Source: Quercus robur (Eukaryota > Streptophyta > Magnoliopsida > Fagales > Fagaceae). From it: 64,000 nucleotides of DNA. Within the stretch, counting starts at the first letter, position 1. The number at the start of each line of letters is the position of its first letter. Shown piece by piece: positions 356 to 56,726 of the stretch. The notes beneath the pieces were generated by a model. That model was not told the DNA's origin and ran no database searches. It worked only from the letters and a program-made list of their open reading frames with translations. Location: the NCBI RefSeq assembly GCF_932294415.1, contig NC_065536.1, positions 55,119,854-55,183,853 of the forward strand, in the 5' to 3' direction. A program made the translations under genes and the position numbers.

Positions 356-2611
356 CTGATCAAGGTTGTCTTGCCGACCCCAGGAGGCCCTATGACTAAG
401 ATGGAACCTCCGCCCTCAACCAAGTCACGTATTATCCCGGCACTTCCGGATACAGCTCGACCAACCCGGCAAGTGAGGCCAATGATTTGCATTTTCCGAT
501 TCCGAATAGCACTTATACGATGTAAAGAATTATTAATACCCGAACGGTTGTCATCCGAAAAATCACCAACCTAATAGAATCAAGTAACTTTACATTAAAC
601 TCTCTAAACATCCACCTCTCTACAAATATCCTAACTAACTAATACACCATACTAATGTAATCCAAATAATATTTTATTATAAGAAGTTATTCATCAATAA
701 TCAGCACAGCCAATCACATAAGGAAAATGCCAAAATTGCTATCAATTTTATTATATAAAAAAACCTATAATCTGACATGTCAAAGGACATAATTAATGTC
801 ACATCAATAAAATAAGGAAAAAGTTGACGGATGCTCTAAAGGTATTAGTTTAAGAAATATTTTTAGAAATTCAATAATTTTTTTTTTTTATATTTTTCAT
901 GAAAACCTTCTTGATCAATTAACAAATGTCTTAATGGCACCTGTTAACAGGACTCATAAAATAAATAAAAAATATTTTAATTACCACTTTTCTAGATTTG
1001 TTTTTAAAAGTTGACACATCACATTAATGTAATGTAATAAAAGTTGTAGGGATTCAAATCTTCTAGATTTTCTAAAGTATTCTACCAATAGATTTTCTTA
1101 AATCCTAACAATTTTTTTATGATTTAAGGGTCTAAATTCTACTATGTTAGCATTCTATTAACAATATTCTTAAAATAATAAAATAATGTTGCAAACAAAA
1201 CAATTAAGATTATTGTTAGTAAAATGTTGACATAGCAAAATCTAGACCATTAAATCATTAAAAAATTGTTAAGATTTAAGAAAATCTAGAAGATCTAAAT
1301 CCATATATAACATAAGTTTCTCCCCCCAAAAAATAATAAATATAACATAAAAAGTGCTCCAAGTATAATATTAGGAGTAATGCTACAATCACAAACTATT
1401 TTACAATATTTTTACAAACTATTGATGTGACAAATTCTTATTAGTTCTAATATGAGTCACTACTAAAATCACATTTATGTTTACCAATAATTATCTGAAA
1501 ATTACTAAAGTCACATCAGCAACAATTTGTAAAAATATTGTAAAATAATTTGTGTATGTAGCATTATGGACAAAGTTTGGCTACAAAATTAGTTGTAATT
1601 TAAGACTACAAACATATTCAATAAAATGATTACTACATATTTTAAAAATATAATCGTTGAATTGCATGTTTTTTACGCTCTTAATACATGTCAAATTTTA
1701 TGTCAATCGGATACTATTTACTATATGATTTATAAGTTTATATTTTATGCATAATTTTAAATTATAAAAACTTACAATTTAAAAAAATTATTCACGATAT
1801 AATTATTAATCTTTAATATTCTTGAAATTTTGCAAGGAGAATATAAGAAAAAGATGTAATCTAATTGTGAATTTATCAAAATTCACCACCATTAAAAAGA
1901 TATTAAGTAAAATAGTAACTTAGAACTAGAACTAATTTTATCCCTAAACTTTCTCCTTAGTCTAATATTAGTAGCTAAGTCACCATCTCTCTAAAAGTCT
2001 AAAACGCAGAAGCACTTAATGAAACACGTTACAAATGAAGCAGTTTTATTGCCATGCAAGAATTCCAGTGAACTCAAATCTCCAATAGCAATGAAACAAT
2101 TTAACAATGGAAATGACCATATGACATTGATCACCTTAGATATCGCGTGCTTTAAATCTTCATGCTTGACAGGTTGCTCCGAGATGACCCAGTCACCCGA
2201 AGGAAACCTCGCAAGAGGCTGCCTTCCCAAATCCATAACAACCTCAATAAGCTCCCCAATCTCCTCGTGCTGAAACAGCTCCCTCCTCATCCTCGGTGGC
2301 AGCAACTCGAGAAACAGCTCGAGCTCCGACGATCGCGACGTCGAGGCCGAATTCGGTGAAATCGACGGTGACCCATTTCCGGGAAAGAAACGATCGGACG
2401 GTCTACGGATCTCCGGGGCCGCCGATCTCGACGACGAAACGATTCCGGGACGCGCGCGACGTGTTCGACGAAATGACGAAGAGAGAGCGGAGATGAAGTT
2501 TGAGGAGTTCTTGAGGTACGTGAGAGTCGAAGTTGAAGTTGGGATTTGGTTCGCTGAGTGCCATGATGTGTGCAGATCAACCAGCACCAAATGTGAATTC
2601 AAAGCTCTCAT
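356..2611 (-). CDS. SPD1: Ycf45/SPD1-type plastid AAA ATPase, 5' part (two exons; gene continues past left edge)
   Basis: Two exons are supported on the minus strand: 2611-2135 (159 codons, phase 0) and 570-356 (215 nt, ending inside an Arg codon). The junction reads AISK|VGDFSDD, with GT at 2134-2133 and AG at 572-571. Exon 1 has a Ser/Arg-rich N-terminus that could be a transit peptide, followed by FLELLPPRMRRE, HEEIGELIEVVMDLG and FPSGDWVISEQPVKHEDL. Exon 2 has MQIIGLTCRVGRAV and the Walker A loop GPPGVGKTT. This order matches the plant Ycf45 / SpoIIIAA-like AAA family. Arabidopsis SPD1 (SEEDLING PLASTID DEVELOPMENT 1) belongs to it and is needed for plastid development in cotyledons. Arabidopsis has a close paralogue, so the symbol gives the family rather than proven orthology. 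The start at 2611 is the Met just ahead of the conserved block. Walker B, any R3H domain and the C-terminus lie outside the window. Confidence 0.85.
1377..1567. repeat. MITE in intron 1 of the Ycf45-like gene
   Basis: About 190 bp that is nearly palindromic at its ends. TAATGCTACAATCACAAAC at the left is mirrored by GTGTATGTAGCATTA at the right, and both arms continue into a TTTACAATATTTTTACAAA-type block. Related copies are seen near 31025-31195 and, truncated, at 40310-40345. The target-site duplication is unclear (TA at most), so I do not assign a superfamily. Confidence 0.6.
1568..1955. repeat. MITE-like element with ~40-bp imperfect terminal inverted repeats
   Basis: The left end ACAAAGTTTGGCTACAAAAT and the reverse complement of the right end (AGAAAGTTTAGGGATAAAAT) match imperfectly over about 36 bases. 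The interior, including CAATCGGATACTATTTAC, reappears in inverted orientation at 57480-57690. That makes this a dispersed family rather than unique intron sequence. No target duplication could be fixed. It abuts the MITE at 1377-1567. Confidence 0.5.
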
Positions 2612-3811
2612 TCCTTTAAAAAAATTTGTGTAATTGTTTTTTTTTTTTTTCCTGGTTAGTTTGGATTGAACTGTTGGGCAATATAATATAATAAAGAGAA
2701 GAAGGAACAGTACAGAGAATTTGGATGAAGAGAAGATTCGAAAGGATCTCCTCTGGTATTGGAGGGAAGGTGGGGGGGCCAATAGAGAGAGGGAAGACAA
2801 GTTAACCAACAGTTTAGTTTGGGCAATAAATGGTTGAGCGTTGAAGTTGAAGTGTTGAAGCAAAGGAGGTTGAACCACGTGGGGCAGGGGCTGCGAACCA
2901 CACATGTTTGAAGAGAAAGAGCCGTGTTAGCTACTTCCCTGTTTTGGCGTGGCGTATAATTTTCTTTAATTTTCTCAGAAACAGAATCGCAATTTCTCTA
3001 AATAATGCTTAGAAGTAGGAACACACAAAAATATATAATTTTGTAACGTGATGAGTTATGAGTAGTTTGGTGTGTCACAACTTATTACATGTTGAATTGT
3101 GACATAAAATTGTGCATTTTTATGTGTTCGAACATTACTCAAATAATCTACCTATTTTTTTTCTCCAATTTTTTTCTCTTTTAATAATTCAATAAAATAA
3201 ATAAACTCCGAAAAACAAATTTTATTGGCTCCCCCAATTCTTTTTTTTTTTTTTTTTGGGTAATGAAACAAGAAGCTTTATTAATTGATACTAATTAATT
3301 ACATAATAAACAAGTACATGTTAGGTTGACTATTGACTGGGCTTAATGGCTTTCCAACCCACTCGAACTATGACAGTAATATAAAGGTTTGGAATTTTTA
3401 AGCTGGGTTTAGAAATGGTTTGGAAAAGATTGGATTTTACATGTAAGCTATGATCAACACTAATGGCTATGTGTTGAAATGGAAAGGATCTCTTCATTTA
3501 TTTTGAAATAAAAATTTTATGGTAAAAATTTACTTTTTCATAAATAGTGTATAATACTCGCATTTAAAGTCTCATTCCATAAATAAATAATTAAATAACA
3601 TAACACCATATTCGATTTAAAATTTCACTATCAAATAGTTCTTGTAGGGGGACGAGGATCCAAGACAATTGATAAAAGGGGTAAGGGCATTTCCGAGGAG
3701 GTAAACCTCGGAAAATATTGGCAAGATGTCCTTGGAAAATGCTCACCTAACTCACGTAGAGGTTGAACAGCCACAGTTGGCGAAGGCACCGAGGACACCT
3801 ATCTAACCTTG
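2612..3811. other. 5' flank of the Ycf45-like gene and intergenic spacer
   Basis: No convincing exon is seen. A T-run lies at 3242-3258. At 3650-3810 there is a GC-richer stretch (CCGAGGAGGTAAACCTCGG, CCGAGGACACC) in the style of the LTR sequences at 32791 and 38696. It is probably a truncated LTR remnant, cut off where the foldback at 3812 begins. Confidence 0.4.
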
Positions 3812-4479
3812 GATTTTTAATGAAATCAATAAGTTGATCGTTGATGCACCCCATGCAGTTGAAGAAGAAGATGAAGCAGTATCTGTAGCACTTCAAGCTC
3901 GTGTTGGTAAGTTTTATAATTTTCTTCTTTTCTCGTTTTTTATATACTAAATTGTTTTTATTTTTAAATTTTTAGCTCAGTGTCCACTAGCAGACAATAC
4001 TGAGCAGATGGAGCAATATCTCCAAGAAATTCGTGAAACAACTGGTAAGTTTCTTTAACATTTTTTTATTTAATTTCTTTTTTTATCAGTTGTTACAAGT
4101 AGTTCACTTAATTAGAGTAGTTAATTTATTTTAAAAATCTTATAAAAAAGATTATAAAATAAATTAACTACTATAATTAAATGAACTACTTGCAACAACT
4201 GATAAAAAAAAGAAATTAAATAAAAAAAATGTTAAAGAAACTTACCAATTGTTTCACGAATTTCCTGGAGATATTGCTCCATCTGCTCAGTATTGTCTCC
4301 CAGTGGATATTGAGCTAAAAATTTAAAAAGAAAAACAATCCAGTAAATAAAAAATGAGAAAAGAAGAAAACTATAAAACTTACCAACACGATCTCAAAGC
4401 GCTATAGGTACTGCTTCATCTTCTTCTTCAATTGTGTGGGGTGCATCAGCGATTGACTTACTGATTTCATTAAGAATCT
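3812..4479. repeat. ~330-bp-arm foldback made of a duplicated intron-containing segment
   Basis: The left arm 3812-4141 and right arm 4148-4479 are inverted copies separated by about 6 bp. Each arm looks genic. In the left arm, read on plus, an open stretch (VEEEDEAVSVALQARV) ends at a good donor TTG|GTAAG. An AT-rich intron of about 75 bp follows, ending TTTTTAG. A second short exon then contains NTEQMEQYLQEIRETT and ends at another GTAAG donor. The right arm carries the same structure on minus, but its first exon has an in-frame TGA (CTTTGAGAT where the left arm has CTTCAAGCT). Arm differences are scattered substitutions and small indels, so the duplication is not recent. A transcript across it would form a very long hairpin. 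I do not recognise the parent protein. Confidence 0.75.
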
Positions 4480-4740
4480 AATGAATGTTCCTTTTCAACA
4501 TTCCCACACTCTTAGGCACCATTTTTTTGAGTTGTTTGGCTATGGATTTTGCTTTTGTGTGTGGGTAGTGGCCACTACTCATATTTATAGGACATGAGCT
4601 ATTTGATCATACTATATGTGTTTACAAATTTGAAAATTGCATGATATTGTGATTGATATTGGTAAGCAAGTTTTATGCCTGCTAGAAAAAATACAAACAT
4701 CATTTTGATAAATAAAAATAAAAATAAAAATAAAAATATC
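4480..4740 (+). repeat. 3' part of the foldback element, shared with 40380-40560
   Basis: It continues directly from the foldback. On minus it holds an ATG and a short reading frame (MVPKSVGMLKRNIH, then a stop). On plus, TGTGTTTACAAATTTGAAAA, TTGCATGATATTGTGA and CATCATTTTGATAAATAAAA recur almost unchanged on the minus strand of 40380-40560. The shared order places this block at the 3' side of a dispersed element. It ends in an (AAAAT)n tract. Confidence 0.6.
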
Positions 4741-4828
4741 CCTCAATAATTGTTTTTAAAAGTATGTTTTAATAGAGAGTAGCCTTTTTTTCTCCATTTA
4801 TATAGACTAATAAACATGGTATCACCCA

Positions 4829-22958: not shown

Positions 22959-25900
22959 TCAAGCTAGAAGACCAATTGAAGCTGCGCACAGCTTCAACTT
23001 CTCAATAGTGACACCCTTAGTCAACATGTCTGCCGGGTTCTTAGATCCACAAATTTTCTCAAGCATTACCAGCTTATCTTCAACAAGATAACGGATAAAG
23101 TGGTATTTTGTCTGTATGTGCTTCGACTTTGAATGAAAAGCCGAATTTTTGGCAAGAAAGATTGCACTCTGACTGTCACTGTGTAGAATGCCCATCTTTT
23201 GCTTCTTACCCAATTCATCTAAGAAACCATGTAGCCAAATCATCTCTTTTCCAGCTTCAGTTGCTGCAACATACTCAGCTTCTGTAGTAGACAAAGTAAC
23301 AATCTTCTGTAGATTTGAAGCCCATGATATAGCTGTACCACCCAGAGTAAAAACAAACCCAGTAGTACTCTTTCTACTATCAATATCACCAGCAAAATCA
23401 GCATCTACATAACCCTGCAGTTTCAAACTTGCACCTGTGAAGCAAAGACATGTATCTGATGAACCCTTCAGATATCTCAGAATCCACTTGACTGCCTCCC
23501 AATGCTGCTTTCCAGGCCTACTCATGAATCTGCTCACAACTCCCACTGCATGTGCAATGTCTGGCCTTGTACACACCATAGCATACATCAAGCTGCCAAT
23601 AGCTGAGGCATAGGGCACCTTGCTCATGTGGTCCCTTTCTTCTTCTGTCTTCGGTGATTGTTCTTTGCTTAGTTTGAAATGACTACCCAAGGGTGTGCTC
23701 ACTGGTTTAGCTTCATTCATGTTGAACCTGCTGAGAACTTTCTTCACATACTCTGACTGTGAAAGTTTCAATGTACCATTAGCCTTGTCTCTAATGATTC
23801 TCATATCAAGGATTTGCTTTGCAGCTCCCAAATCCTTCATTGCAAATTGTTTGGACAATTGCTTCTTCAAATTATTAATCTCCTCAATGCTAGACCCTGC
23901 AATAAGCATATCATCCACATATAACAGTAATATGATGTAAGAATTGTCAAAAGATTTAACATAGCAACAGTGATCAGCTTCACATCTCTTGAACCCAATT
24001 CTATGCATAAAACTGTCAAATTTCTTGTACCACTGTCTAGGAGCTTGTTTTAGGCCATACAAGCTCTTTCTCAGTTTGCAAACTAAATTCTCTTGTCCTT
24101 GAGCAATGAACCCTTCTGGCTGAATCATGTAAAGGTCTTCCTCCAAGTCACCATGAAGGAATGCTGTCTTCACATCTAACTGCTCAAGATGTAAGTTTTC
24201 TGCAGCCACCATTCCCAGTACTAGTCTGATTGTTGACATCTTCACAACTGGAGAAAATATCTCTGTGTAGTCAATGCCTTCCTTCTGCTGGAACCCTTTA
24301 ACAACTAATCTGGCCTTGTAACGTTTGCTACCATCATGCTCATTCTTTATTCTGTATACCCACTTGTTGTGCAAAGCCTTCTTTCCTACTGGCAATTCAG
24401 TCAGTTCCCATGTTTGATTCCCCAACAAGGAATCCATCTCATCCTTCATGGCTATCTCCCACTTGCTTGAATTCTCATCTTGCAAGGCTTCATCATAACA
24501 TTCTGGCTCACCACCATCAGTCAACAGGAGATAATTTAAAGTGGGTGAATAACGTTGTGGAGGTCTAATGTTTCTGGAAGATCTGCGGACTTCAGCTACA
24601 GGTGTACTCAGATCTACCTGTGAATTTACATTCTCCTTATCTTCTTCACCCCTTTTCTGGACAGTACCTTCAGTCAATTCATCTAAGTTGACAAACTCAG
24701 ATTTCTTTTGATCTATCTCTGTAACATCTGACACTACAGTTGACCTGTCCTTGTACATAACCTGTTCATTAAATATCACATTTCTACTTCTGATGATTTT
24801 CCTGTTTTGTTCATCCCAAAACCTATAGCCAAATTTCTCATCACCATAGCCAATGAAAAAACATATTTTAGACTTTGCATCAAGTTTACTACGAGCATCA
24901 GAATCAATATGAACATAGGAAACACAACCAAAAACTTTTAAGTGTGAAAACTTTACCTCTTTACCGCTCCAAACCTCCTCAGGAAGTCTGAACTCCATGG
25001 GAACTGAAGGTCCTCGGTTTATCAGGTAAGCTGCAGTGCTAACAGCATCAGCCCAAAAAGTTTTTGGTAGTCCAGCATGCAACCTCATACTCCTAGCACG
25101 CTCATTGAAAGTTCTATTCATGCGCTCAGCCACACCATTCTGCTATGGTGTCCCAGGAATGGTCTTCTCCATCCTAATTCCCTGTGCAACACAATACTCA
25201 CTGAACCCTCCATCTATGTACTCTCCTCCATTATCTGACCTCAAACATTTTACTTTTAAACCTGTTTCTGTCTCAACCATGGCCTTCCACTTCTTAAAGG
25301 TTTCAAATACATCTGATTTATTTTTCAGAAAATAAACCCATACCTTTCTACTTGAGTCATCAATGAAAGTGATGTAGTACCTTGAACCTCCAAGGGATGC
25401 AACCGGAGAAGGCCCCCACAAATCAGTGTGTACTAACTCCAATTTTTCAGCCTTCGGTGTCCTGCCAGTTTTCAAGAAGCTCACCTTTTTCTGCTTTCCT
25501 AAGATGCAACTTTCACACATGTCAAAATCAATGGACTTTAATTCTGGTAATTTTCCTTTTGACAGCAGCATCTTCATCCCTTTCTCACTCATGTGACCAA
25601 GTCTTTGGTGCCATAGGCTTGTATTAGTACTTGCATCAGCAACTGCAATTGTGTCTCTTGGACTTGAGGTCATGTACAGAGTACCAGTTTTCTTTCCACG
25701 AGCCAATACCCTAGCTCCCTTTGTAACCTTCCAAGTACCACCAACAAATAGTATTGCATGTCCTTCATCATCAAGTTGTTCAACAGAAATCAGATTCCTC
25801 CTCAGGTCAGGAATATGTCGAATCTTCTCCAGTAACCAAACAGACCCATTGGGCAACAATATTCGAACATCTCCCATACCCACAACATCCAAGGCTGAAC

Positions 25901-26855
25901 CATCAGCCAAATACACCTTACCAAAATCACCTGCAACATAATTCTGTATGATTTCTCGGTGTGGAGTGGTATGAAACGAAGCTCCTGAATCCAAAACCCA
26001 ATCATCAAGTGGACTGTCTACTGCAAGAAGTAATGCATCCTGTACCTCTTCTGTTACAGCATTAGCAGAATCATCTTCATTCTTCTTCTTAGGACTTTTG
26101 CATTGATTCCTAAAGTGACCTGTTTTCCCACAATTCCAGCATTGTACCTGTTGGCCTGATCTAGATTTACTTCTGTTCTGATTAGAATTTCTGGATTTTG
26201 ATCTGCCCCGATTTGAATTTCTGTTATTACCTCTGCCTCTTGTCTCAAGGTTTAGGGCAGAACCAGATCCTGAGGTTTCACCTGCATCTCTTCTGCGAAT
26301 CTCCTCAGCCAGAATTAAATCTCGTATATCATTGTACTTGAGTTTTTCCTTTCCTGTAGAATTGCTTACTGTCATCCTCATTGCCTCCCAACTGTTTGGC
26401 AAAGAAGCCAAGATGATCAGAGCACGAATCTCATCATCAAAATCAATTTCTACAGACGACAATTGATTTGTGATAGTATTAAATTCATTCAGATGTTGTG
26501 CTACTGATGCATTCTCTGCCATCTTCAGATTGAACAGTTTCTTCATCAAGTGCACCTTATTGTTTGCTGACGGCTTTTCATACATACCAGACAAAGCTTT
26601 CATCAGATCTGCTGTGGTCTTCTCCTTTACAACATTGTGTGCAACAGACCTAGACAGAGTTAACCTGATAACTCCTAGTACCTGTCTGTCAAGAAGAGCC
26701 CATTCCTCAGCCTTCATAGCCTCAGGTTTTTCCCCTAGAAGCGGTTGATGCAATTTCCTCCCATAAAGGTAATCCTCAATCTGCATCCTCCAATACGCGA
26801 AGTCTATGCCATCAAACTTTTCTATTCCAGACGTCTTTCCTGCTTCCTCTGCCAT
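22959..26855 (-). pseudogene. Copia gag-pol polyprotein with one in-frame stop
   Basis: From the ATG at 26855 the frame runs through gag (zinc knuckle CWNCGKTGHFRNQC), protease (WVLDSGASFHTT), integrase (WHQRLGHMSEKG, HTDLWGP, FIDDSSRKVWVYFL), reverse transcriptase (YVDDMLIAGSS) and RNase H (YVDADFAGDIDSRKSTTG, LSTTEAEY). It ends at the TGA at 22959-22961. The domain order (integrase before reverse transcriptase) is Copia, of the TNT1-94-like kind. A single TAG at 25142-25140 falls within integrase, just before NGVAERMNRT, where the family usually has Gln. The rest is open for about 1,300 codons, so the copy is only minimally damaged and may be mobilised in trans. Confidence 0.95.
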
Positions 26856-26894
26856 TGCTCCCACTCAAACCTAACCCTAGGCTCTGATACCAGT

Positions 26895-27379
26895 TGTAGG
26901 GAATTTAACCAAAAATCCCAACCTGTGAGAAACAAAATAAATAGAGAAAACACACGCCAAAGAAAAATAATCACACGCACAAGACAATATTTACGTGGTT
27001 CGGCAATTTGCCTACGTCCACGGAGTTGCAGGGATTTCACTATTATCAGGGAGAATACAATAGTGCACAAGAACACTCTCAAGAAACCCAAATCCCAATT
27101 ACACCCTAGCACTCTCTCACATAAAAAAATAAGAATAGAAGCTGACTGCCTCTCTTTTCTCTATTTTCTCTCATGCGGCTTGCTCACTAGGTTAATTAGG
27201 ATTTCTCTCTTTTAATCTCACGGCTGCACCTACTTGCACTTAATACAATATATATATATGTATATGTTAAAGTCGGTAGAGACAAAAAGAAAAAAAAGGT
27301 TTCCTATTACAAATAGGATTTGGCAACTAAGGACCGACGTGGGCTTGTGGCAATTCAAGCCACACGGCCCACTTCAACA
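26895..27379 (-). repeat. 5' LTR of the Copia element
   Basis: 485 bp and almost identical to the other LTR. Its right edge (27379) lies just 15 bp upstream of exon 5 of the LysM-RLK, whose acceptor AG is at 27393-27394. Confidence 0.95.
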
Positions 27380-28662
27380 AAATCTTTGGTATAGGTGGAG
27401 CTCCTGGGGTATGCCGGTGGAGAGGATGACCTCTACTTGGTCTATGAGTATTTTCAGAATGGATCACTGAATGCTCATCTGCATGATCCAATACTAAAAG
27501 GTATTCATGTCATCAGGACACAAGTCATAACTCTTAGTTTGCCAAGAACAGTTCTGGTGTGGTTCAATTAGACGAAACATATAAGATATGAAAGGTATCA
27601 TATATGCAGTGATAGACCGTCCTTGTAGGCTTCACACATCCAAAAACAGCATCTTTATGTCGGGCTGACATAGGTCATTATGCCCTCTCAAGTAGGTACA
27701 AGATCATAACGCTCTTTGTTGTTCTAATTAAAAAATCCCTGTGCATTCATTGTAACTGGTGACCATAGCAAATTACTTGAAGAGCGTAAATGAGTTCAAG
27801 TCCTAGTAAAAGCGTTAGGATGTAACCATGTGTCTAAGTGATACCGTGATGTAAATTATGAATTTGTATAGGGAAAGGTCAACTAGTACTCTAGTCCAGT
27901 ATGGAAGATTTCAATACTTAAAAAGAGTTCAGAACTTCAGATTATACTTCAGTTAAGGGATCGATTGAATTTACTTTCTTCTGTTTATTTAAAGAAAAAG
28001 TCAAATGAATCTAAACTAAAAAATTTATGAAATCCTCTACCCCATTTTCTTGGAATCAGCTGCAGCAGAAAACTATATCCCTTATTCAATCACCACAGGC
28101 TGTTTGGAATATGCAAGTTTATCCAAAGAAACTCTATGGGCCTCCCACTCGTACAGTGTCATAGGGCAACAATGAATTAGTTGTTGAGCTTAAATGCCTT
28201 AAATGTATGCTAGCAATCTTGGTTTACAGAGGATGAGCAAGATTTACAACAATGAGTATTGAATCAGGTCATCAGCCTCTCTCTTGGACTGCAAGAACAC
28301 AGATTGCACTGGATGCTGCAAAGGGTATTGAATACATTCATGACCACACAATATCAAGGTATGTGCACCGAGATATAAAGACAAGTAACATTCTCCTTGA
28401 TGAGGGACTCGGAGCAAAGGTACTTCCAATCTCTTTAATATAGCCATGTTTGTATGAATAAATTCTTCTAGCCATGCTTGATTTTACAATATCTCTCTTT
28501 AGAAATCATGTCTGTCACATTTTGGGATCTGCCACTGCCCAGTACCATAGAACTTCAATACAAATTTCCAAGCATAACTCTGTTCCTGAATGAAAAATAA
28601 AGATATTTTTCTAACAGTTTACTGAACTCCAGTAAAATTTCTCCAAAAAAATGAATATGCAG

Positions 28663-31237: not shown

Positions 31238-31820
31238 GGGGGTGTTTGGTTTAGCAATTTCTATAACTCATATCTCAGTTTCCATAACTCATAACTCAAA
31301 AATGGTGGGGCCCATAGCAAAAAGGTTGTTTGGGAAGTCCATAACTTTGTTTCCATCACTCAATTATCTGATTTTTGAGTTATGAGTTATGGAAACTGAA
31401 AATATATTTTGGCTGTTTTCAGTTTCCATAACTCATAACTCAATGACAATATTGTAATTAAACACACATAAAAGACCCATAAACAGTACCCAGCCGCAAC
31501 TTTTGACCTTTGACTTTTTTTTTTCCTTTCTTCTTTGGGTTGGTTGTTCGTTTTTTTTTTTTTTTTTTTTTTTTTTTCTCCTAGGTTGGCTGTTCGGTCT
31601 ATTCTGGATTTTTTTTTTTTTTTTTTTTTTTTTCACTAGGTTCGGTGAGTTTGGGTACTGAAAGAAAAAAAAAAACTGCACCGATGACAGGTATGGGACC
31701 CACAAATAGTGTGAAAAATATTGAGTGATGGGAAGTGTGTGATGGTGCCAAACAAACATAGTATTTTAGAGTGATGAGTGACGAAAATTGAGTGACAAAA
31801 AAAAAAAACCAAACAAGGCC
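31238..31820. mobile_element. PIF/Harbinger (Tourist)-type element, 583 bp
   Basis: The ends GGGGGTGTTTGGTTT and (reverse complement of right end) GGCCTTGTTTGGTTT are inverted repeats, flanked by TTA on both sides (31235-31237 and 31821-31823). Internal inverted words of the type TTTCCATAACTCATAACTCA repeat several times (31278-31441). Two long T-runs (31550-31577 and 31610-31633) lie inside. No transposase. Confidence 0.75.
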
Positions 31821-32790: not shown

Positions 32791-33463
32791 TGTGGGGCCA
32801 AAGAATTCACGGCCCAAGCCCACTCTACGTTAGGGCCCAAGGCCTAAGCTGAGAAGAGCTATTGCCGAGGACACATAATGAAATCCCAAAAGGAGCATAA
32901 GGATATTGCCGAGGGCGACCTCATGCTCAGCACCTCACAAAATGCCTAAAGAAATGGGCAAACTCAGTACAGGGACAGGACAGGGGAAAAAACTGCCAAC
33001 ATTGTAATACAGAACCCTGTATCTGACAAGCCCATACTCTAAACCATGCCCTTTAACTTTTCCAACGACCCCTAACCACTCTAGGTATGGGTTGACAGGA
33101 CAGGTTTGCACCCCAGAAAAGTAAAACTTACACGTGGACCCTAAAAGGGGAAACGAACACTAGTATAAAAGGAGAAAGAGGCCCAGGAAAAAAGGGATCC
33201 CCCTGCAAAAGGGAGAAAAGGAAGGATACAAGGCTCCTCGGACGCTGTCCGAGGACTTAAGTCCTACAACCCGTACTAATGGAGGGCTTAGCTAGTCAAG
33301 CCAAGTCCGTATATACATAAGCTCCCATAGAAACTACGACTAAACTGCTCACCTGTGCCCAAGGTCATGCCTTTCAAGCCCACTCTCTATAAATCATATT
33401 GTTAGGGCCCTTTACATACGAGCCCAACGTCATTCTTGGGCCGTAAAAAATCGTGTCCCTACA
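32791..33463 (+). repeat. 5' LTR of the non-autonomous element
   Basis: Starts TGTGGGGCCAAAGAATTC and ends ATCGTGTCCCTACA. Same length as the right LTR, with scattered substitutions. Confidence 0.92.
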
Positions 33464-33721
33464 ATTGGCGCCGTTTGTGGGAAGGCTTGCGCGTTGGCAC
33501 AGGTGGTGGTGGAGTTGAGCCTCTGTCGAGCAAAGGTCTGTGAAGGTTCCTACATTTCCAGCGACGTGCTGTTGTTTCTCCGACATAAATTTCCGTTAGG
33601 GGCTACGCCTCGCAGTGCCAATGGCACGGGCAATCCTAGGGGCTTCTAACATCAAGCTAACTCCCCCCACCTTGGTCGAGGGGCTAACCTTCGGAAAATA
33701 AATAAATAAATGAACGAATAC

Positions 33722-34540
33722 AAGTTTTGGACAGAACCAAGGCCTTGTATGGTTCTCAGATCAAGCCTCTGGGGAAACCAACTACTTAGAAGAAAAACTA
33801 TAAGTTTTGGACAGAACCAAGGCCTTGTATGGTCCTCGGACTCAAGCCTCTGGGGAAACCAACTACTTAGAAGAAAAACTACAAGTTTTGGACAGAACCA
33901 AGGCCTTGTATGGTCCTTGAACTCAAGCCTCTGGGGAAACCAACTACTTAGAAGAAAAACTACAAGTTTTGGACAGAACCAAGGCCTTGTATGGTCCTCA
34001 GACTCAAGTCTCTGGGGAAACCAACTACTTAGAAGAAAAATTACAAGTTTTGGACAGAACCAAGGCCTTGTATGGTCCTCGGACTCAAGCCTCTGGGGAA
34101 ACCAACTACTTAGAAGAAAAACTACAAGTTTTGGACAGAACCAAGACCTTGTATGGTCCTCGGACTCAAGCCTCTGGGGAAACCAACTACTTAGAAGAAA
34201 AACTACAAGTTTTGAACAGAACCAAGGCCTTGTATGGTCCTCGGACTCAAGCCTTTGGGGAAACCAACTACTTAGAAGAAAAACTATAAGTTTTGGACAG
34301 AACCAAGGCCTTGTATGGTCCTCGGACTCAAACCTCTGGGGAAACCAACTACTTAGAAGAAAAACTACAAGTTTTGGACAGAACCAAGGCCTTGTATGGT
34401 CCTCGGACTCAAGCCTCTGGGGAAACCAACTACTTAGAAGAAAAACTACAAGTTTTGGACAGAACCAAGGCCTTGTATGGTCCTCGGACTCAAGCCTCTG
34501 GGAAAACCAACTACTTAGAAAAGACAATACGGGGTTTGGA
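33722..34540 (+). repeat. 81-bp tandem array (about 10 units) inside the LTR element
   Basis: Units begin AAGTTTTGGACAGAACCAAG at 33722, 33802, 33883, 33964, 34045, 34126, 34207, 34288, 34369 and 34450, with a degenerate eleventh near 34531. The spacing is 81 bp (80 for the first). Units differ by only a few bases. Because 81 is a multiple of three and no frame within a unit is forced to stop, long frames stay open on both strands (33710-34669 plus, 34545-33652 minus). These are by-products of the array, not supported proteins. Confidence 0.95.
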
Positions 34541-36034
34541 CACAACCTGGACGTTATATGGCCCCTAAAATCTACCCCGAAGAAGAGTTCCCCATTGATA
34601 GTTGGGTTAATCCCCAGACTGAATGGAATCCCCAGTCTACCCTCGGATCCTCAATACCAAGGGAACTGATGCGACAGTTATAGGGTCAGATGTTGTCAAA
34701 AACACGGTCAAAGTCCCTCACTGCTCGGCTTCCCCTTCGGATGAATTACTTAGAGTTTAACGTTCTCGGACGGTCGCCTCACATGCATTACGAAGCACAC
34801 AGCCGTTATCTCAGTTAGTTTCATGAGTTTAATCTACTGGGAATTATCATTATTATACTTGATAATGTCGATAAGTTCAAATTAGTGGGATTCTGCTTCA
34901 AAGTTTTTCCTGCTCTAAGCATCATTAAAGGAAACTGCACATGTAATATCCCATTCACAAAGTAGTTGTTGCAGAAAAGAAAAGTATATAAGAGGAAGCA
35001 AATTCATTTCTTATTAAGACAAATAAACAGTACAGCGTACAATGAAAGAGCTTAAATAAGCTCATACTGAAACTAACTACATAAGCGAAAAGAAAAGATA
35101 CAAGGGAGTGAAGAAAAAGCCGAAGAAGAGGTGCAGAGAAGAGGGGTGCTGCCATTCCAAAATGTCGTCTAAGGAAACCATTCCTCAATACTTTTACATG
35201 CCTATAACTCATGCAGCAAAAGAGCCTAACTTTGGGCTAGCACCATTGAAGAAAAGGTGCAGGGAGCCCAACTTGAGGCTAGCACCGTTGAAGAAAAGGT
35301 GCAGGGAGCCGGAAGTTGATGAGCCTCCACGTAACCACGCCTGCGATAGAGCAGACGGCGCTGATGGCGAAAAACCTTACTTCTGACGCATCAAGAATCT
35401 GATGCGACCAGTACCTGCTTCGGATTTTGATTGAAAGAGGGAGAAATACCATTTCTCCCTTGTCAAAACGGAAGATTATCTTGAGTCTGTGCCTCCCCTG
35501 TCCAGACCACGCCACTTTGAGTCTCGGAAGGACACGGCGCCTCTGTGGCGGATGTAGTTCCTTTACCCCTGCCTGTGTCTCAAACATATTACACTACACT
35601 AAGGGTGGATATCACTGGATATGGAGACTGTGATTATAGCTGAAGGATTATAATTTTGAAGAGAGTCGAAGGGTTTGTATGTAAGGAGAATAACCTCCTA
35701 TCCTACTTATATAAAGGGTAAGGTGGTGGCATTCAATTTGTGCAACTTTCCAAGGAATGCTAAGGACAAGGTAGATTTGGCTCAATTTCCAACACCATCC
35801 GCAATCGTAGGATCTGAAGATCCTCGTGAAGGCGCGCCTCGAGTGCTGAAACGTCAAAGGACTCCACGTGAGTGGATAAAGGAATGGCTCTTAATTTGGC
35901 ACGTCTCTCATGTAAATAGAAAAACACAAATATTAGTAGAGTACAGAATTTTAGCGAGCCATGATGTGGGCCCAACATCACCAAAACCCTCCTCCCCGAC
36001 TAAAAAGTCGGGCAGCAGGATTTTGAGAGGCTAT

Positions 36035-36707
36035 TGTGGGGCCAGAAAATTCACGGCCCAAGCCCACTCTACGTTAGGGCCCAAGGCCTAAGCCGATGAG
36101 AGCTATTGCCGAGGACGCATAATGAAATCCCAAAAGGAGCATAAGGATATTGCCGAGGGCGACCTCATGCTCAGCACCTCACAAAATGCCTGAAGAAAGG
36201 GGCAAACTCAGTACAAGGATAGGACAAGGGAAAAAACTGTCAACATCGTAATACAGAACCTTGTATCTGACAAGCCCATACTCTAAACCATGCCCTTTAA
36301 CTTTTCCAATGACCCCTAACCACTCTAGGTATGAGTTGACAGGACAGGTCTGCATCCCAGAAAAGTAAAACTTACACGTGGACCCTAAAAGGGGAAACGA
36401 ACACTAGTATAAAAGGAGAAAGAGGCCTAGGAAAAAAGGGATCCCCCTGCAAAAAGGAGAAAAGGAAGGATACAAGGCTCTTCAGACGCTGTCCGAGGAC
36501 TTAAGTCCTACAACCCGTACTAATTGAGGGCTTAGCTAGTCAAGCCAAGTCCGTATATACATAAGCTCCCATAGAAACTACGACTAAACCGCTCACCTGT
36601 GCCCAAGGTCATGCCTTTCAAGCCCACTCTCTATAAATCATATTGTTAGGGCCCTTTACATACGAGCCCAACGTCATTCTTGGGCCGTTAAAAATCGTGT
36701 CCCTACA
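36035..36707 (+). repeat. 3' LTR of the non-autonomous element
   Basis: Starts TGTGGGGCCAGAAAATTC and ends ATCGTGTCCCTACA, followed by the ATTTA duplication. Confidence 0.92.
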
Positions 36708-37081
36708 ATTTATATTATAGAATTTTAATGATTATTTTTATAATATTATATAAGGAAATATTTTTATTTATAGTCATAACAATTTATTTAAAATGTGACA
36801 TTCTTCTTTATATGAGAGAATATTTTTATTTATAATTTTACTACTATTTAAGGGGCTTCCCCTGTTTGGACCGGATTTTTTTGGTTCTAAAATACCCCTA
36901 CATCCCTAGATTTAAGTAGAAACAAAACTAAATGATAGTCTGGTAAAAATACATGTCTAACTTGCATTAAGCATTGCCTATAAAATAAGAATACTCTTCC
37001 GCTAACCTACTTCTTCAAAGTAACTATATGTTTATTGTTTTTTTTTTAAATAGAAAAATAAGTTTTTTTTTTAATAAGAAA

Positions 37082-39397: not shown

Positions 39398-39677
39398 GAT
39401 GGTTTTCAAATTGCTCTTTTATTTTTATTTTTTTGTAAAGATTAATAATTTGCATCCATTCTATTTTGGGATTACTATATTTTCCAATCACAAAAATACC
39501 TAAGGGTGTGATGAAAAATTATTTTACTTGCAAATGCATATTTCCAACCACACTTCTAGGTATTTTGTGATTGAAAAATGTAATAATTTCAAATTATAAA
39601 TTATGTAAATTATTAAATTTTACTCGAAAAATAGAAGAGCCTCTAAGCACGTGCTCACGCACGTGCTTAGAGGCTAG

Positions 39678-40379
39678 TAATAATAATATCCTTTTTTTTT
39701 TTTTTTTTTGATAGACGCTAGTAATAATAATTGATTTAGAATGTTTAGTTGTTTTGACAACAATTAACACAAAAACAAAAACAAATTAAATATTTGTGAA
39801 TTCACTAAAATTAGTCATAACCAATTAGATTTCTTAACTTCTTTTAGTGATATTATATATATAACCAAAATTATAGTACTTATTCTATTTAATTAAAAAA
39901 GATTATTAATATAATAAATAAATATTTTTTATATTAATTATTTTAAGTGATTCACTAATTATTTAAGTATAATGAAATTTTGATGTCAATTTTCTAAGAT
40001 ATATATATATATATATATATATACAAACACACATATATGAGTTTAAGTTAGTAAAGTTACACTTGGTGTAATTTTACAAAAGTTACACATTTTGTTCACC
40101 ATAGATCTCTAAGCAATCAAACGGTTTAAAAAACACTATCTTACTTAATTAATATGACATGTTTTAGTGTTCTCTCTTATGTATTACAATAAATTATGAA
40201 ATTCTATTCTATTTTATTATTTTCTCACCCTTGTTGAACTACTATAAAAAATAAAAATAAAAATAAATCTCAAGTTTTCTCCATATTTAAAAGAAGAATA
40301 ATATTACATACACAAATAATTTTGCAAAATTTTTACAAAGTGTTGATGAAGCATGGTCCACATTAGCTTTGAAAAACAA
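39678..40379. other. AT-rich spacer with microsatellite
   Basis: A T-run (39691-39708), then a repeat of the words GCTAGTAATAATAAT seen at the Helitron end (39673 and 39710). A (TA)n tract lies at 40003-40022. A truncated copy of the 1377-type MITE lies near 40303-40345. No gene. Confidence 0.4.
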
Positions 40380-41155
40380 TTATTGAAAGATATATCTTTA
40401 TTTTTATTTATCAAAATGATATTTGCATGGTTCTAAAAAAAATGATATTTGTATTTATTTTTTGTTTAGTAGGCATGAAATTGGCTTATTTATATCTGTC
40501 ACAATATCATGCAATTTTTAAATTTGTAAACACATATATTATGATCAAATTATTATACCACTCTTATTGTCTTTCTAATTTGTTATAAAATAAAACACGA
40601 ATTATTACAATTTTTTAGAAGTAAAATTATACTCAGAAAGAGAAGAAACTATTACAAAAACATTAGCAATTTCTTAATGAACCTCGTCGAAATACTGCTC
40701 CATCCGTTGTACACCATATTCTTGATAAACCCCATCCAAATATTGCTCCATTTGTTCTGTGGGTTTCCATAGCACAAGAAAAAATATATTTCATATAAAT
40801 AAAAACAAAAAAATCATAACTTAATTATACTTGGTTCCTTACCAACTCCTTCAAGTCCTCCATGCAGATTTGAGATTTGGATCCTGTGGACAATCCAATC
40901 AACATTATTCATGATGATTGGAACAATTCTACGCATTATCTTGGCTTGGTTTCTTTGGGTTTGGCTTGAAAGTTTCTCTAAGTTTGTGTTGTATTTGCGT
41001 GGGTTTGAAGATTTGTGTGGGTACTGAGAGCCTTTACAGGCTGAGAAGGATGGAGAGAAGATTTTTAGGCGGGATAGAAAAGAAAAATAAAATATAACAA
41101 TTGTCTTGTTATTGATGAAAAGATGAGAAAGATTAGTTTGAATTGATTTGTTCAT
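40380..41155 (-). other. Unrecognised two-exon coding-like locus sharing its 3' part with the 3812-4740 element
   Basis: On minus an ATG-led stretch (MRRIVPIIMNNVDWIVHRIQ, then NLHGGLEGV) ends at GTTG|GTAAGG. An AT-rich intron ends at CCCACAG, and a second exon (40763-40682) reads EQMEQYLDGVYQEYG, then RMEQYFDEVH and a stop. The duplicated EQ/RMEQY motif and the splice phase match the exon pair in the foldback at 3812-4479 (NTEQMEQYLQEI). Downstream, 40560-40380 on minus is clearly homologous to 4590-4740 on plus. So this is a dispersed, possibly mobile, coding-like unit. I know no family with this motif; the start and 5' extent are uncertain. Confidence 0.5.

Positions 41156-50055: not shown

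Positions 50056-56726
<6,671 letters not shown>

Follow-up and report, generated by a model that had tools for sequence, protein, structure and literature searches.

A 673-bp palindrome in Quercus robur, probably formed by inverted duplication of part of a small plant gene

We analysed a foldback in a 64,000-nucleotide stretch of Quercus robur DNA (NC_065536.1, positions 55,119,854 to 55,183,853; hereafter the window) and found that both of its arms carry the same gene-like exon–intron segment in opposite orientation. We consider it probable, with respect to origin and class, that the locus arose when part of a small plant gene was duplicated in inverted orientation and is now an endogenous inverted repeat of the pseudogene type. 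Five observed features carry this reading: the palindrome, the exon–intron arms, the reading frame that they share, a relative elsewhere in the window, and flanks that differ between the two sides.

A BLASTN comparison of positions 3701–4600 with the window returned a self-inverted match at 3809–4481 (676 columns, 89.3% identity), corresponding to one palindrome with two arms of about 335 nt and a 6-nt apical loop; a repeat finder picked up the same foldback as two pieces. The first-pass annotation had described arms of about 330 bp facing each other across 6 bp at 3812–4479, a layout that was confirmed both by this match and by alignment of arm A with arm B, in which 302 of 339 columns were identical and 5 were gap columns (90.4% identity without gaps). 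Folding, which the same annotation had suggested as a check, gave one long stem on either strand, with a minimum free energy of −439.8 kcal/mol for the minus-strand RNA (shuffle mean −125.6) and −439.3 kcal/mol for the plus-strand RNA (shuffle mean −121.9). Since none of 20 shuffles reached the value of either strand, chance was excluded as the source of the palindrome. Its arms are long, near-perfect and closely spaced, as is characteristic of endogenous inverted-repeat loci. A read fold-back or assembly artefact was judged unlikely, because it should leave near-identical arms, while the arms observed here diverge by about 10%.

The internal order of both arms is that of a gene. Each comprises a 94-nt part of exon 1 followed by the donor GTAAGT, a 69-nt intron ending in TTTTAG, and then a 69-nt exon 2 with another GTAAGT behind it (Table 1). 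The GTAAGT donors and TTTTAG acceptors are intact in arm A as well as in arm B, and in both arms exons 1 and 2 are joined in one frame across a phase-1 GT-AG intron. The earlier description of two exon-like stretches with GT-AG boundaries per arm was thus borne out, and arm layout and frame together support the proposal that an intron-containing genic unit was duplicated in inverted orientation. A higher G+C content in exons than in introns is the usual contrast in plant genes. The exons of arm A have G+C contents of 0.383 and 0.435 and those of arm B of 0.403 and 0.42 (exon 1 of arm B being counted from the ATG at 4522), compared with 0.145 (arm A) and 0.188 (arm B) for the introns. One arm had been reported to be open and the other to carry a single stop. 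Indeed, the frame of arm A is open over 54 codons with zero in-frame stops; arm B, however, contains two in-frame stops, a TAG and a TGA.

When three exon peptides were compared with Pfam, two had no match at E values up to 10, and the third had a single match, CdaS_N, that fell below the cut-off (E 0.044; 14.4/27.2 bits). A PDB search with the arm A peptide returned one match that was not convincing (E 0.71). The Pfam and PDB comparisons therefore provide no family name for the putative encoded gene. An exact 23-mer of exon 2 had zero matches in viral and prokaryote contig collections, which says little on plant genes.

Table 1. Coordinates of the palindrome, its flanks and the relative within the window
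Feature	Position	Strand	Remarks
Arm A of palindrome	3809..4145	+	Sense on +; no recognisable promoter at outer end
Arm A exon-1 part	3813..3906	+	Open frame up to donor GTAAGT
Arm A intron 1	3907..3975	+	69 nt, GT-AG, 14.5% G+C
Arm A exon 2	3976..4044	+	Same frame as exon 1 across phase-1 intron; GTAAGT after
Arm B of palindrome	4146..4481	-	Sense on -; hairpin with 6-nt loop
Arm B exon 2	4246..4314	-	Splice-frame analysis
Arm B intron 1	4315..4383	-	69 nt, GT-AG
Arm B exon 1 from candidate start codon at 4522 (outside arm)	4384..4522	-	TAG 4480-4478 and TGA 4396-4394 in frame
Arm B candidate 5' UTR/core promoter	4482..4600	-	Resembles 5' end of 40-kb relative
TATAAAT box, candidate promoter	4583..4589	-	About 60 nt upstream of ATG 4522, pointing into hairpin
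Segment matching 3' flank of relative	4601..4762	+	75% over 184 columns
3' flank of relative	40367..40550	-	Matches 4601-4762
Relative, exon 2 with stop	40674..40756	-	58-codon frame across phase-1 intron
Relative, exon 1 with ATG	40843..40936	-	Frame and alignment

A gene of the same design is present at about 40 kb, where the minus strand (40936–40674) holds a complete 58-codon frame from ATG to stop, with a 94-nt exon 1, a GT-AG phase-1 intron of 86 nt (40842–40757) and an exon 2 of 83 nt including the stop. In sense orientation, arm A aligned to this gene with a local score of 69 (shuffle maximum 51) and arm B together with its 5' region with a score of 56 (shuffle maximum 52); in neither case did any of 300 dinucleotide shuffles reach the score. 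The reversed arms behaved like shuffled sequence, their scores being reached by 88 (arm A) and 204 (arm B) of 300 shuffles. As one shuffle in the reversed arm A control scored 62, the margin of arm B's 56 is modest. Since the sense arms beat the shuffles and the reversed arms do not, the locus at 40380–41155, which the first-pass annotation had named as a relative, proved right in kind and codes on the minus strand, but is distant. The arms and the relative's exon 2 region have the peptide TEQMEQYL in common, its T being intronic under the splice site chosen. Given a relative with the same design and a complete frame, the arms resemble a piece of a gene rather than a bare MITE. The parent gene of the arms was not found within the 64-kb window. 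The relative's exon 2 region (40677–40760, minus strand) carries a MEQY[LF]D-like motif twice, which may reflect an internal duplication.

The two outer ends of the palindrome are not alike. Arm B runs outward on the minus strand into an in-frame ATG at 4522 and then into TATAAAT at 4589–4583, so that a candidate promoter faces the hairpin. Counting both strands, the window contains 323 instances of the motif TATAWAW (2.5 per kb per strand); at this frequency, a TATA-like box is weak evidence alone and could be due to chance. The resemblance of 4482–4600 to the 5' end of the relative was borderline, its score being reached by 10 of 500 single-base shuffles. Outside arm A, no sequence like the ATG/TATA region of arm B aligned, and for the left flank (3561–3815) matches within the window were confined to 16–26 bp, with no relative among them. 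By eye, this flank has a GC-richer part at about 3643–3808.

Beyond the candidate promoter, positions 4601–4762 matched the 3' flank of the relative (40550–40367) with 75% identity over 184 columns. At the relative, the gene and then its 3' flank follow each other on one strand, and at the foldback the flank segment lies in the orientation of arm A. This suggests that the reversed copy now lies between the body of a gene and the 3' flank that belongs to it. Alternatively, the match could represent an unrelated dispersed repeat present at both loci. We also considered 4601–4762 as a shared promoter and rejected this assignment, as the plus strand after 40550 is unlike 4600–4482 (414 of 500 single-base shuffles reached the score). 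Among the matches listed, no second copy of the tail was present upstream of the 40-kb gene up to 41700; the window scan otherwise returned matches of 14–46 bp.

From these features we infer an order of formation, promoter activity, dicing and any target. The unit repeated tail-to-tail, with the 6-nt loop as the only spacer, would run from the 3' part of exon 1 through intron 1 and exon 2 to about 100 nt further on. Most likely, the event started with a fold-back template switch inside the gene, during replication or break repair, which would have copied the gene backwards from the centre of the palindrome past its own promoter and would then have rejoined the 3' flank (4601 onward). The 5' end of arm A itself would later have been lost or replaced at 3809. 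If the locus is transcribed, the minus strand would most likely be read from the candidate promoter near 4583–4600, and the folded transcript would have a stem of about 335 bp that could be cut by DCL2, DCL3 and DCL4 into 21–24-nt siRNAs. Predicted fold and arm structure support the earlier claim that transcription would yield long double-stranded RNA, and transcribed endogenous inverted repeats are described as generic substrates of the siRNA-making DCL2, DCL3 and DCL4 (PMC12825306). Such siRNAs would act mainly on their own locus, with methylation in cis as the first expectation, and on close copies of the parent gene. Judged by its sequence, a silencing role of the foldback is possible.

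The parent gene is the likely target of any siRNAs. The first-pass annotation had proposed that the 40-kb locus could be silenced in trans, a claim that turned out to be weak. We compared 21-mers with less than 86% A+T across the window outside the foldback. The best match at the 40-kb locus (40740–40760) had 3 mismatches and was one of 9 rows with that number for arm A and one of 10 for arm B.

The substitutions between the arms consist of 25 transitions out of 32 changes. Eleven of the 25 transitions fall at CG/CHG sites, to which 52 of the 192 cytosines belong (Fisher P 0.053); this excess is suggestive of what cytosine methylation would leave, though it is not significant. A G–U wobble would remain at 12 of the 25 transitions in the minus-strand RNA and at 13 in the plus-strand RNA (P 1.0; hand count from the alignment). 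We thus rejected selection for preserved pairing, as the mismatches are not biased towards wobble. The pN/pS ratio between the exons of the arms was 0.57, based on 6.5 synonymous and 13.5 other changes, which are too few to decide. Among the longer parts of the arms, divergence is highest in exon 1, where 14 of 93 sites differ; for the part beyond exon 2 the figure is 4 of 91 (P 0.023).

These patterns bear on a reading in which the same inverted duplication is neither transcribed nor a source of small RNAs and drifts neutrally. It overlaps with our preferred explanation, from which it differs only in activity, and we regard it as a serious possibility, somewhat short of an even chance. The broken frame of arm B, the lack of wobble bias among the transitions and the divergence of exon 1 are all consistent with a silent relic, as is the outcome of a search with Rfam 15, which gave zero matches at gathering cut-offs in the 64 kb. 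What speaks for activity is the report that inverted-repeat transcripts are generic DCL substrates (PMC12825306), so that read-through from any side would activate the foldback. We consider it unlikely that the locus is instead a foldback transposon or MITE that has acquired a piece of a gene and is mobile as a whole. Its size and full-length inverted arms would fit such an element, and at least four further self-complementary stretches with 71–84% identity, possibly ordinary MITEs, are present in the window (1089–1288, 1378–1566, 39423–39636 and 31375–31443). However, arm B continues into gene-like 5' sequence, and exact repeats of at least 5 nt that could represent a target-site duplication do not abut both arm ends (3770–3830, 4460–4525), repeats of 2–3 nt being possible. 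Short motifs do recur near the ends: AGGCACC lies 18 and 32 bp outside; TAATGAA, which extends to 9 nt if one mismatch is allowed, falls within arm A on the left and straddles the outer end of arm B; and ATCTAA is found 2 bp outside arm A and 6 bp inside arm B, out of register. The sole other match to the foldback in the window by BLASTN covered 68 bp at 73.5% identity (18256–18189, E 9e-5). In Pack-MULEs, a captured gene fragment is situated between long terminal inverted repeats and flanked by a 9-bp target-site duplication. This assignment was rejected, as the gene fragment itself forms the repeat arms here, with a 6-nt loop between them, and a flanking 9-bp repeat was absent, the only 9-nt match having one mismatch and lying inside arm A on the left.

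A further explanation, which we rate as quite improbable, is a young microRNA gene that was formed by inverted duplication of its target and yields one or a few defined 21–22-nt RNAs regulating a small-protein family that includes the 40-kb locus. Processed MIRNA stems are generally far shorter and less perfect than the stem of the foldback, which argues against this reading. Under this model the arms should be homologous to a target gene beyond the small-RNA site; to the 40-kb locus they are related distantly. In favour of a microRNA gene, a 21-mer of exon 2 is mismatched with 40740–40760 only at small-RNA positions 13, 16 and 19 (by eye); the other rows with three mismatches in either arm, as given above, detract from this match. 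A lax Rfam scan of the foldback produced MIR821 (91.6 bits, E 7.8e-17) and eight further matches to MIR models, all below threshold. The MIR821 match would favour a microRNA origin, but it stays far under the 249-bit cut-off and has a composition bias of 43.4. Moreover, two smaller palindromes of the window used as controls (1087–1290 and 1389–1555) drew sub-threshold MIR matches too, which were weaker (best 42.6 bits, E 2.9e-6); MIR5380 was the one family common to the matches of the foldback and the control palindromes. Because other palindromes also draw MIR matches, we read those of the foldback as reflecting hairpin shape, not descent. Membership in a known MIR family was thus rejected, although the MIR821 match is stronger than that of any control palindrome. 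The anatomy of the locus does match the inverted duplication model of MIRNA birth (PMC3237417, PMC5223194), and MIR161 and MIR163 have been named as inverted-duplication MIRNA genes (PMC5223194).

With an inverted partial duplication as the preferred reading, the foldback appears to fit, in anatomy, the known class of endogenous inverted-repeat pseudogenes. It had been put forward as a candidate for an undescribed regulatory system; this was not supported, since gene-fragment inverted repeats that make siRNAs form a class already described (PMC12825306, PMC7048303, PMC9636151, PMC3804491). According to these accounts, the closest parallels differ from the foldback in scale or in what is known of their action. 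For instance, the transcript of the single locus IR71 in Arabidopsis likewise folds on itself into long double-stranded RNA, the substrate type of DCL2, DCL3 and DCL4, but its duplex of about 3 kb has measured 21-, 22- and 24-nt small RNAs (PMC12825306), whereas the duplex predicted for the foldback would measure about 335 bp. Tail-to-tail copies of part of a gene are also described for MIR1444, which derives from PPO (PMC5223194). MIR1444 is similar to a 78-nt stretch of PPO, and in the published model its foldback shortens and gains bulges, in contrast to the present locus, in which the whole exon–intron segment is still 90% paired. In persimmon, OGI is an inverted repeat in a pseudogene copy whose small RNA is said to repress the paralogue MeGI; unlike the foldback, it has a named target and a phenotype (PMC7048303). 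The inverted partial duplicates of ARR17 in poplar resemble the foldback in that they contain exons and form a hairpin, and they carry 24-nt siRNAs (PMC9636151); their target is known, while the parent gene of the foldback was not located in the window. Finally, the I locus of soybean is an inverted repeat of chalcone synthase gene copies with siRNAs against family members, but it is a 27-kb gene cluster (PMC3804491), compared with a fragment of 673 bp here.

A more specific scenario would have the gene copied backwards past its promoter, resulting in a promoter-carrying hairpin locus that controls a family of two-exon proteins of about 60 residues via siRNAs and stands midway on the path from simple inverted duplicate to MIRNA gene; we regard this as rather a long shot. 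If the foldback is transcribed, it would represent an early-stage case, its exon–intron structure still readable, in which an inverted duplication brings its own promoter and becomes a hairpin RNA gene in a single step. If it is not transcribed, it would be an ordinary pseudogene palindrome. In the proposed layout, the gene body is followed by the reversed gene with its promoter and then by the 3' flank, an order of junctions by which the template-switch origin could be tested across relatives.

The window contains several other elements, and its genes and transposons point to plant nuclear DNA. A Copia-type retrotransposon occupies 22324–27381, with RVT_2 in the ORF at 22959–25142; a single in-frame stop, located between the two ORFs listed for this element, breaks its long frame. 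The terminal repeats of this element (22324–22812 and 26895–27381) are 99.6% identical, indicating a recent insertion. Direct repeats at 32791–33466 and 36035–36710 (96.3% identity) enclose an array of units spaced about 81 bp apart (33693–34564), in which a frame is open on both strands; the region 32791–36710 resembles a non-autonomous LTR element that harbours a minisatellite. Ordinary plant-type genes surrounding the foldback were recognised on the minus strand: an ORF with a peroxidase domain (PF00141) at 11110–11961, and an Alliinase_C domain (PF04864) in two pieces at 53540–53896 and 55920–56384.
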